DNA of 64,000 nt, from contig NZ_GL876926.1 of the NCBI RefSeq assembly GCF_000192575.1, positions 709,929-773,928 on the forward strand, written 5' to 3'. The first letter of the stretch is position 1, and every line of letters begins with the position of its first letter. Under the pieces are notes generated by a model that saw only the letters and a program-made list of their open reading frames with translations, did no database searches and was not told the DNA's origin. Origin of the DNA: Novosphingobium nitrogenifigens DSM 19370. GTDB taxonomy: Bacteria > Pseudomonadota > Alphaproteobacteria > Sphingomonadales > Sphingomonadaceae. This document shows, in pieces, positions 42,674-60,765 of this stretch. A program made the translations under genes and the position numbers.

Positions 42674-42785
42674 AAAATGGCTCCCTGAGTTGGATTCGAA
42701 CCAACGGCCGCTCGATTAACAGTCGAGAGCTCTACCGCTGAGCTATCAGGGAGCGGCCCCGGTTTCCCGGGGCAGGAGCGCGCTA
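42674..42785. repeat. 112-bp direct repeat, copy 1 (carries tRNA-Asn)
   Basis: This segment is identical but for one base (42764 T versus 44351 G) to 44261-44372. Identity covers the whole tRNA-Asn gene, 4 nt beyond its CCA end and 33 nt of 5' flank. The unit flanks the PldA-like gene in direct orientation, 1587 bp apart. Confidence 0.85.
42678..42752 (-). tRNA. tRNA-Asn (GTT), copy 1
   Basis: A full cloverleaf reads on the minus strand: acceptor TCCCTGA/TCAGGGA, D arm with TAGCTCAGCGG, anticodon arm CTCGA-CTGTTAA-TCGAG with anticodon GTT, and T loop GGTTCGAATCC. CCA is encoded. It is followed at the other side by the PldA-like gene. Confidence 0.95.
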
Positions 42786-44260: not shown

Positions 44261-44372
44261 AAAATGGCTCCCTGAGTTGGATTCGAACCAACGGCCGCTC
44301 GATTAACAGTCGAGAGCTCTACCGCTGAGCTATCAGGGAGCGGCCCCGGTTGCCCGGGGCAGGAGCGCGCTA
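44261..44372. repeat. 112-bp direct repeat, copy 2 (carries tRNA-Asn)
   Basis: Second copy of the unit at 42674-42785, differing at one base. Recombination between the copies would delete or duplicate the PldA-like gene together with one tRNA. Confidence 0.85.
44265..44339 (-). tRNA. tRNA-Asn (GTT), copy 2
   Basis: Identical in sequence to copy 1, with anticodon GTT and encoded CCA. It is upstream of the PldA-like gene on the same strand, with 167 nt between. Confidence 0.95.
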
Positions 44373-58853: not shown

Positions 58854-58930
58854 GCGGGTGTAGCTCAGTTGGTTAGAGTGCCGGCCTGTCACGCCGGAGG
58901 TCGCGGGTTCGAGCCCCGTCACTCGCGCCA
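58854..58930 (+). tRNA. tRNA-Asp (GTC), copy 1
   Basis: 77-nt cloverleaf with encoded CCA: acceptor GCGGGTG/CACTCGC, D arm AGCTCAGTTGG, anticodon arm CCGGC-CTGTCAC-GCCGG with anticodon GTC, T loop GGTTCGAGCC. Confidence 0.96.
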
Positions 58931-58972: not shown

Positions 58973-59049
58973 GCGGGTGTAGCTCAGTTGGTTAGAGTGC
59001 CGGCCTGTCACGCCGGAGGTCGCGGGTTCGAGCCCCGTCACTCGCGCCA
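58973..59049 (+). tRNA. tRNA-Asp (GTC), copy 2
   Basis: Identical to the first copy over all 77 nt, 42 nt downstream on the same strand and probably in the same transcript. Confidence 0.96.
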
Positions 59050-59312: not shown

Positions 59313-59543
59313 CTACCCCCAGCGTCCGGTTTCCATCCAGATCATGAATCGCCTGAGCGGCAGGATCCAGATCGTGCCCAGCGCGATATAGGCCACCATC
59401 TGGGCCAGCACCGGCCATGTTGCCAGCGGACCGGCCAGCATGGCCACGACGCCGACATAAATTGCCAGTGCGATGACGAGCGTCAAGACGCCGATGGGTT
59501 TGCGCCAGGTCGGCCTTGCATCGCCCGGGTTGAAATCAGGCAT
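59313..59543 (-). CDS. DUF2842 small membrane protein
   Basis: 76-residue protein with two membrane helices (about 19-40 and 45-65), starting MPDFNPGDARPTWRKPIGVL and ending RRFMIWMETGRWG. The WRKPxG start and WILPLRRFMIWMETG end are typical of DUF2842, a small family widespread in alphaproteobacteria with unknown function. Its first codons overlap the end of fthC by 8 nt, so it is translated from the same mRNA. Confidence 0.85.
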   Translation of the reverse strand: MPDFNPGDARPTWRKPIGVLTLVIALAIYVGVVAMLAGPLATWPVLAQMVAYIALGTIWILPLRRFMIWMETGRWG

Positions 59544-60147
59544 CCCCGCTTTCTCCAAAGGGACCGAACAGGCGGGTGGGCGTCACCACCGCAACCAACG
59601 GTCGATCGTGGTCTTCATGGGGCAGCTCTTCGACAAGCTGGCAGTCCCACGCCAAGCCTACCGCGGGAACGTCGTGATGGGCACCCAGCCAACGGTCGTA
59701 ATGACCACCGCCCTGCCCAAGCCGTGCACCGTTCGCCGTAAAGCCCACCAGGGGGACGAACAGGAAATCGGGCTCGAGCGCTTCTACATCCGCTTCGGGC
59801 TGGGGAACGCCATAGGGGCCGGGAACAAGCAATTCGTCGAGATGCGGCAATGTCCAGTGCCGGAATTCCATCGGAGTATCGCGCCCGGCGAACCACGGCA
59901 TGGCGATCTTGTGTCCGGCATCATGGAAAAAGCGCGCGTAACCGACCGCAGGTGCCTCGTAGCGACCCGGGATATAAAGGCCGATCGTTGCCCCCTTGGG
60001 GATGAGGTCGACCAGGGCCGTTGGCGGACGCAGCAGAAGCAGGGCGCGAATGCGCGGATCGAGCGATTCGACATGAGCCTTGCGAGTGGCGCGCAGAGCC
60101 TTGCGCAGCGCAGCCTTGTCGACCGCGGCAGTATCCTCGTCGTTCAC
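59536..60147 (-). CDS. fthC: 5-formyltetrahydrofolate cyclo-ligase
   Basis: 203-residue ATP-dependent enzyme converting 5-formyl-THF to 5,10-methenyl-THF. ATP-binding and folate-binding marks are RKALRATRKAH (N-terminal), the IPKGATIGLYIPGRYEAP strand, VPLVGFTANGARLGQGGGHYDRWL (nearly invariant) and the PTRLFGP end. The start is a GTG at 60147 with AAGGAGA 7 nt upstream, better than any ATG. Upstream on the same strand is the 6S RNA candidate, which is the usual 6S/ygfA arrangement of proteobacteria. Confidence 0.93.
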   Translation of the reverse strand: MNDEDTAAVDKAALRKALRATRKAHVESLDPRIRALLLLRPPTALVDLIPKGATIGLYIPGRYEAPAVGYARFFHDAGHKIAMPWFAGRDTPMEFRHWTLPHLDELLVPGPYGVPQPEADVEALEPDFLFVPLVGFTANGARLGQGGGHYDRWLGAHHDVPAVGLAWDCQLVEELPHEDHDRPLVAVVTPTRLFGPFGESGDA

Positions 60148-60242
60148 CGGGCATCTCCTTTGTCCGGGGCGCGACGGCCTTTCGTCGAGGATCGTGCGCG
60201 CTGTGCGGCGGGGTGACGGGCCCACCATGGGTCGTTTGCTCG

Positions 60243-60347
60243 GAAAATCCTCTGACGCCTCAACGTCAGGTGGGAACCATGTGATCCGGACCACGGTCCA
60301 GACCAGGGACAGCTCCCTTGGATTCGATATAGCCTCAGGGATGTTTC
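60243..60347 (-). ncRNA. ssrS: 6S RNA candidate
   Basis: In the 237-nt gap between zapA and fthC the minus strand can fold into a long interrupted hairpin. The closing stem pairs GAAACATCCCTGAGGC (60347-60332) with GCGTCAGAGGATTTTC (60258-60243). A large central bubble follows, then an upper stem around AAGGGAGC/TTCCC, ending in the hairpin CTGGAC-CGTG-GTCCGG. This open-promoter-like shape and the place next to fthC are the marks of 6S RNA, the regulator of sigma-70 polymerase. The core is about 105 nt, shorter than the usual 150-180, so the ends given are a minimum. Confidence 0.55.
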
Positions 60348-60384
60348 ATGCGGCTCGTGCCGGGCAGAACCCGTCAGCCTCTAT

Positions 60385-60765
60385 TTAGGAGGCCTCGCCG
60401 CTTTGCTCAAGACGTTCGGCAAGCTTTTCCACCCTGGCTGCCAGATCGGCGACACGCGCGAGCAGTTCGGGCGCAATCGGATCCCTTACCACTTCCGGTT
60501 CGGGAGCGGGTGGCGGTGCGGGAGGGGCCGGTGGGGGAGGCGCAGGGACCGGCGCCGGTCCCGCCTTTTCCAGCGCAAGGAGTTCATCCGCAAGCATGAG
60601 CGTCGCAAAGAGCAGCATGCGCACTTCGGTCTGCCCCTGGCCGAGGCGCAGCCTGCGCACCCGGTCGTCAACCATGCGGGCAAGAGTTTCGATGTGGGCT
60701 TCCTCGCCCACGGGAACGGCGACGGCGTGCGAGCGGCCGCCGATGGTCAGGGTGACGTTCTTCAC
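60385..60765 (-). CDS. zapA: Cell-division protein ZapA
   Basis: 126-residue ZapA, which cross-links FtsZ protofilaments at midcell. The N-terminal globular domain (VTLTIGGRSHAVAVPVGEEAHIETLARMVDDRV) and the LLFATLMLADELLALE helix are typical. A Pro-rich stretch (about 70-95) precedes a short C-terminal coiled coil (ELLARVADLAARVEKLAERLE), a longer tail than in E. coli. Its ATG overlaps the stop of the upstream coiled-coil gene by 4 nt. Confidence 0.88.
   Translation of the reverse strand: MKNVTLTIGGRSHAVAVPVGEEAHIETLARMVDDRVRRLRLGQGQTEVRMLLFATLMLADELLALEKAGPAPVPAPPPPAPPAPPPAPEPEVVRDPIAPELLARVADLAARVEKLAERLEQSGEAS

Follow-up and report, generated by a model that had tools for sequence, protein, structure and literature searches.

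A full-size 6S RNA (ssrS) gene between zapA and fthC in Novosphingobium nitrogenifigens that scores below the Rfam cut-off

The zapA-fthC interval

The DNA analysed here, referred to as the window, is a stretch of 64,000 nt from N. nitrogenifigens DSM 19370 (contig NZ_GL876926.1, positions 709,929 to 773,928). An earlier note on this sequence had placed a candidate 6S RNA, a small RNA that restrains RNA polymerase, on the minus strand at 60243-60347, in the gap between zapA and fthC. Pfam searches bore out the identity of the flanking genes (ZapA and 5-FTHF_cyc-lig domains on either side, all on the minus strand), and the RNA itself was found to extend beyond the noted segment:

60388-60765, minus strand: zapA, upstream neighbour (PF05164, E = 5.9e-14)
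60213-60378, minus strand: 6S RNA (ssrS) gene, about 166 nt, from matches to RF00013 and to the clade model R1, with ends taken from conservation
59539-60147, minus strand: fthC, encoding 5-formyltetrahydrofolate cyclo-ligase, downstream neighbour (PF01812, E = 3.2e-26)

The zapA gene ends with a TAA codon at 60387-60385. The fthC domain match was made on the reading 59539-60153 and the start was chosen by eye; it is likely the GTG at 60147, which is preceded by an AAGGAG-like site near 60161.

The RNA lies after zapA and before fthC (or fau) in the window, in 75 of the 80 loci of relatives and in Escherichia coli K-12, where ssrS (b2911) occupies the same position and strand in the order zapA-ssrS-fau. 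No zapA was detected by a search of the remaining five loci. According to the part of PMC7641849 consulted, the pairing of ssrS with the cyclo-ligase gene is conserved broadly across the Proteobacteria, the alphaproteobacteria among them, and the two genes are co-transcribed in E. coli.

Several tRNA genes were observed in the same region. Tandem tRNA-Asp(GTC) genes are located near the 6S gene (58854-58930 and 58973-59049, plus strand), and an equal-scoring tRNA pair also lies near the 6S gene in several relatives, for example L003, L006, L007, L008, L012, and L014. Two tRNA-Asn(GTT) genes, identical in sequence and equal in score, were found about 1.6 kb apart on the minus strand (42678-42752 and 44265-44339).

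Matches to the Rfam 6S model

In a permissive local search against 361 bases of the locus, the Rfam 6S model (RF00013) matched 60373-60215 over its full length (model positions 1-187; 34.9 bits, E = 1.1e-5); the E value of this match was 0.002 in the 62-kb search. The score lies below the Rfam gathering score of 46.4 bits, which is a curator's annotation cut-off and not a biological definition, and a search of the whole window at gathering cut-offs reported five tRNAs only and no 6S RNA. The covariance-model check proposed by the earlier note thus came out in favour of 6S RNA through the full-length match, and its opposite, the absence of a hit, held at Rfam's curated cut-off only. Over the whole genome, RF00013 returned nothing even at E = 10 and missed this gene too, probably because of its first-look filter.

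Low scores were common to the genus. By a search at the DNA level, the region was detected in 35 of 41 genomes, one of them the window's own. With the permissive setting, RF00013 matched 19 of 20 loci from the same genus (L001-L020), all at full length with 30.0-45.8 bits, so that the gene of a global transcription regulator falls under the Rfam cut-off in all 20; the exception, L008, gave no match at E = 1. Among ten further loci, nine were matched at the same site and eight of them exceeded the cut-off (47.6-59.2 bits), all eight belonging to other families of the order. The same-genus locus L021 scored below it (37.4 bits), and L023, whose contig ends inside the RNA, was not matched. The window's own locus is counted among these 30. 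Under stricter filters, by which weak matches are lost, RF00013 was found at E = 1 in 120 of the 147 order genomes, 65 of them exceeding the cut-off; the two same-genus members among these matches scored below it (43.2 and 35.2 bits). In the class, a similarly strict search at E = 0.01 returned 109 of 143 genomes, of which 87 exceeded the cut-off. Compared with the alphaproteobacterial members of RF00013, the Novosphingobium RNAs are alike in their full-length alignment, in their rod with a central bubble and in length, but differ in scoring under the curated cut-off. Because of these scores, the 6S gene may be overlooked or mistaken for a truncated one, which constitutes a gap in annotation.

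Recovery by a clade model

The clade model, R1, is a covariance model based on 29 sequences from the order, among them the window locus, with a hand-drawn structure of 38 pairs. In the window's genome, R1 gave a single match of 168.3 bits (150 of the 1647 first-look candidates scored); since the window sequence is part of the model, this match and its ends are partly there by construction. The earlier note had counted a clear 6S gene elsewhere in the genome as evidence against the candidate; no second gene was found with RF00013, in the whole-genome search that missed this gene too, or with R1 over those 150 candidates.

Across the order, R1 matched 146 of 147 genomes, among them the window's own and some others used to build the model, with stricter filters that lose weak matches. 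G140 was the sole genome of the 147 without a match. R1 also matched 80 of 80 loci that had been chosen on their fthC protein alone, in each case before fthC and on the same strand (one of them, L110, is cut off). Moreover, R1 coincided with all 65 Rfam 6S genes of the order that exceed the cut-off, and, of the 109 Rfam 6S matches in the class, the best 30 were all recovered at the same positions, with E values of 2.8e-9 or lower. This recovery places the low-scoring Novosphingobium RNA and the accepted 6S RNAs in one family.

Fold and extent of the RNA

The stem, bubble and hairpin described in the earlier note for 60243-60347 were recovered by folding (-45 kcal/mol, with 15 pairs below the bubble in the minimum-energy structure). 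The conserved structure, however, covers 166 nt, from 60378 to 60213, and the Rfam match 159 nt (60373-60215), so that the extent of about 105 nt was not borne out. We picked the ends at 60378 and 60213 from an alignment of relatives, on the basis of conservation. The helix taken for the closing stem turned out to be the inner one, P2, which adjoins the central bubble; the true outer closing stem, P1, lies beyond the noted segment. From the 5' end of the RNA to its 3' end, the structure is as follows:

60363-60375, minus strand: P1, outer closing stem, 5' strand, pairing with 60226-60215
60332-60342, minus strand: P2, inner closing stem, 5' strand, which with the adjoining bubble forms the predicted pRNA template
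60318-60331, minus strand: central bubble, 5' side (alignment A1)
60272-60317, minus strand: apical arm with P3, P4 and the terminal loop (helices 3-5 with 96.4-100% of cells paired)
60259-60271, minus strand: central bubble, 3' side (alignment A1)
60247-60258, minus strand: P2, 3' strand (covariation in A1)
60215-60226, minus strand: P1, 3' strand (covariation in A1)

The RNA thus has the rod architecture of 6S RNA, with a closing stem, a large central bubble and an apical stem. Its length also fits, since 6S RNAs range from about 160 to 200 nt in the portion of PMC8414754 consulted. Rfam 6S matches in other alphaproteobacteria mostly measured about 151-165 nt, with some outliers (lengths judged by eye), and by this likeness the window RNA is of normal size; the E. 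coli K-12 6S RNA is longer (183 nt versus about 166 nt). The general architecture is also shared with Bacillus subtilis 6S-1 and with most of the class loci sampled (the best 30 of 109).

To describe covariation, we used A1, a MAFFT alignment of 28 distinct sequences in 29 rows (L023 left out), and the alignments A2 and A3, which were fitted to the model and hence lean towards it. In A1, 97.6% of cells were paired, versus 36-48% for slid partners, and 16 of the 38 pairs were changed on both sides; every one of the five helices contained at least one such pair. Across the five covariation measures, no value was reached by any of 500 shuffles. P1 was paired in 96.1% of cells, with changes on both sides in 3 of its 11 pairs, and P2 in 99.6% of cells, with such changes in 4 of its 10 pairs. 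A2 was paired in 98.1% of cells and showed 10 pairs changed on both sides, a value equalled by 91 of 500 shuffles; P2 hardly varied there (none of its 10 pairs had changes on both sides). Some genomes are common to A1 and A2, and their counts are thus not independent. In A3, 92.5% of cells were paired and 18 pairs were changed on both sides (equalled by 1 of 500 shuffles), while further pair types were equalled by 100 of 500 shuffles. In the main, both fitted alignments point to the same structure as A1. A3 includes one antisense row (L166), which was kept for covariation, dropped from the counts of confined hairpins and exchange pairs presented below, and unparsed for the pRNA motif.

These data also bear on the idea that the fold merely reflects inverted repeats occurring by chance in an intergenic gap. 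Taken alone, the fold of the 105-nt core would allow it, being only moderately unusual (1 of 200 dinucleotide shuffles equally stable, z = -3.44). However, sequence, structure and position are conserved across the order, and we regard chance as a negligible explanation. The 166-nt form folded at -70.8 kcal/mol, and none of 200 shuffles was equally stable (z = -2.97).

Promoter-like pair and boundaries of the unit

A conserved pair of promoter-like elements was observed upstream of the RNA:

60406-60411, minus strand: -35-like element CTTGAG, within the 3' end of zapA (conserved pattern)
60383-60388, minus strand: -10-like element CTAAAT, overlapping the zapA stop codon (conserved pattern)

The pattern TTG(A/C)N, 17 nt, (C/T)TANNT, which we take to resemble the alphaproteobacterial housekeeping promoter, was present with this single spacing in all 79 relatives with room upstream (L110 left out), with its end always 4-5 nt upstream of the 166-nt form. 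Among shuffled upstream regions, 0 of 1580 had the pair in place and 17 of 1580 had a looser form anywhere; the pattern was picked after the alignment had been inspected. Conservation of the -35-like element may be partly coding, since it sits in zapA codons. A generic scan for sigma-70 promoters and terminators reported neither at the locus.

Together with P1, this pair bears on the size of the RNA. The earlier note had allowed for a reduced form, which at about 105 nt would comprise the bubble and its flanking stems only. In its favour, truncated B. subtilis 6S-1 RNAs with just the bubble and short arms work in vitro, according to the section of PMC8876501 consulted. Against it, the outer stem is conserved with covariation and the promoter-like pair keeps its distance from the 166-nt end, both beyond the 105-nt core. 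The reduced form was therefore rejected as highly unlikely, and the note appears to have caught only the inner part of an RNA whose length is near that of other alphaproteobacterial 6S RNAs.

The boundaries also speak to another possibility, that the RNA is a cis-acting leader of fthC, such as a riboswitch or an attenuator, and not a trans-acting RNA. It does precede fthC on that gene's strand, and the scan showed no terminator-like site between them, so that the RNA and fthC may be co-transcribed. On the other hand, about 50 nt separate the end of the window's conserved unit from the Shine-Dalgarno-like site of fthC, the spacing between the RNA and the fthC match ranges from 8 to 303 nt in 75 relatives, and the architecture is that of 6S RNA from end to end. 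We consider a leader very unlikely, and the locus is best read as a 6S gene.

Predicted pRNA

By analogy with U44 of E. coli, a start site of pRNA synthesis could be proposed:

60329-60342, plus strand: predicted pRNA 5'-AUAGCCUCAGGGAU-3', starting opposite U60329

At the level of sequence, the template site reads GGCUAUA where E. coli has GCCGAUA, and the motif with the A next to the start was found in 29 of 29 rows of A1. The predicted product differs from the E. coli K-12 pRNA, AUCGGCUCAGGGGA. Its positions 4/5 are GC in all 29 rows of A1, in all 79 parsed rows of A2 and in all 37 parsed rows of A3 (the motif was unparsed in 4 of 41 A3 rows). The window RNA thus has no GG at these positions, a trait that is frequent among 6S RNAs and does not define them. 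GG is given for E. coli, Aquifex aeolicus and Rhodobacter sphaeroides in the part of PMC8414754 consulted, and it occurred in 11 of the 13 class rows listed (best 30 of 109 loci; 14 rows of the class alignment A4 parsed and 16 of 30 unparsed).

The 5' side of the bubble at 60325-60331 reads UAUAUCG in the window and UAUAAGC in most same-genus rows of A1; the bubbles of L015 and L016 are also exceptions, and differ in another way.

Release hairpin

Folding of the strand that would be freed by pRNA synthesis gave a candidate release structure:

60252-60269, minus strand: predicted 7-pair strand-exchange (release) hairpin, mutually exclusive with P2

In the window, this hairpin had an energy of -9.8 kcal/mol, and 4 of 1000 shuffles were equally stable. 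For 30 distinct sequences of the family, 432 of 30,000 shuffled bubbles were equally stable (range 0-96 per 1000), and this energy control is a stronger test than the pair counts and covariation given below. As a positive control, E. coli 6S RNA with its template blocked at U44 folded into a 9-pair hairpin of the 3' bubble, which is already described in the part of PMC8876501 consulted; a like hairpin thus replaces P2 in E. coli when the template is blocked, with 9 pairs there versus 7 here.

In the window's family (Novosphingobium, Erythrobacter, and allies), a hairpin confined to the 3' bubble was found at -2 kcal/mol or below in none of 21 and none of 79 sequences; every 3' bubble instead paired with the 3' strand of P2 through 7-8 pairs, with a median of -9.8 kcal/mol. 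At the same cut-off, 5 of 48 sequences belonging to the order's other families had the confined hairpin, as did 20 of 30 loci of the class (the best 30 of 109). Exchange pairing of at least 6 pairs was seen in 21 of 21 and 79 of 79 family sequences, in 9 of the 48 sequences outside the family but within the order, and in 0 of 30 class loci (again the best 30 of 109), a threshold that about 35-49% of shuffles also reached. The 40 regions fetched are a part of the non-family genomes of the order matched by R1, and were picked by us down the list. L110, which is cut off, was excluded from the hairpin counts.

With the template blocked, a hairpin of at least 5 pairs was formed by 29 of 29 sequences in A1, 79 of 79 in A2, 36 of 37 in A3 and 14 of 14 in A4, versus 68 of 145, 232 of 395, 63 of 185 and 21 of 70 shuffled bubbles, respectively. 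The hairpin was already present in free folds, with no blocking, of 12 of 29 (A1), 14 of 79 (A2), 23 of 37 (A3), and 7 of 14 (A4) sequences, and is thus not strictly limited to the released state. In a narrower region, at least 4 pairs were formed in 27 of 29 sequences of A1 and 76 of 78 of A2 (L045, in which the searched 3' motif is absent, and L110, which has no 5' motif, were left out of the latter).

Covariation of the exchange hairpin alone was mixed. In A1, 91.7% of its cells were paired, versus 20-52% for slid partners; 1 of 500 shuffles paired equally well, and 2 of 500 had as many cells changed on both sides. By contrast, 269 of 500 shuffles matched the covariation score, 76 of 500 had as many pairs with changes on both sides, and all 500 had as many pair types. 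Sequences within the family also resemble one another too closely to be treated as independent.

Taken together, the window's family may lack the confined 3'-bubble hairpin seen in most of the class loci sampled and in B. subtilis 6S-1 (PMC8876501, in the part consulted), and use instead a strand-exchange hairpin with the 3' strand of P2, of the gammaproteobacterial type. We put this forward tentatively and place it somewhat on the doubtful side of even. If true, the release switch of 6S RNA would have been rebuilt within one order, whose predicted pRNA also went from GG to GC at positions 4/5. A real difference in the release hairpin would make the order a set of natural variants for testing the release of RNA polymerase by 6S RNA.

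Identity and proposed function

The identity of the RNA put forward by the earlier note is strongly supported by the full-length RF00013 match, the reciprocal recovery with R1, the covariation, and the synteny. Structure, conservation, promoter-like motif and the single copy found agree with these observations, and the best explanation, with a probability of about 0.97, is a Novosphingobium 6S RNA (ssrS) gene whose promoter, polymerase binding and pRNA release would be those of its family. The locus is an ordinary, full-size alphaproteobacterial 6S gene that falls below the Rfam cut-off in the genus and carries two lineage-specific details. A search by title and beginning of abstract returned no paper on 6S RNA in Sphingomonadales or in Novosphingobium, Zymomonas mobilis, Sphingomonas or Erythrobacter, the main 6S surveys being outside its scope.

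Polymerase binding and pRNA-driven release are described as traits of the 6S family in the parts of PMC8414754 and PMC8876501 consulted, and a mode of action can be proposed by analogy. A promoter at the end of zapA would give rise to an RNA of about 166 nt, whose transcription may continue into fthC. This transcript would fold as a rod whose central bubble imitates an open promoter, and the rod would bind RNA polymerase with the housekeeping sigma factor, lowering the use of real promoters as growth slows. During outgrowth, the polymerase would copy the 5' bubble and the inner stem into the short pRNA. Its synthesis would unwind P2, and the freed 3' strand, together with the 3' bubble, could then form the 7-pair hairpin and help release the enzyme.

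Finally, an insertion of about 13-14 nt was observed in the apical loop of the 6S RNAs of L013, L020, L021, and L023, and the stretch CUCUGUUUCCAUUGGGG was common to the insertions of L013, L020, and L023.
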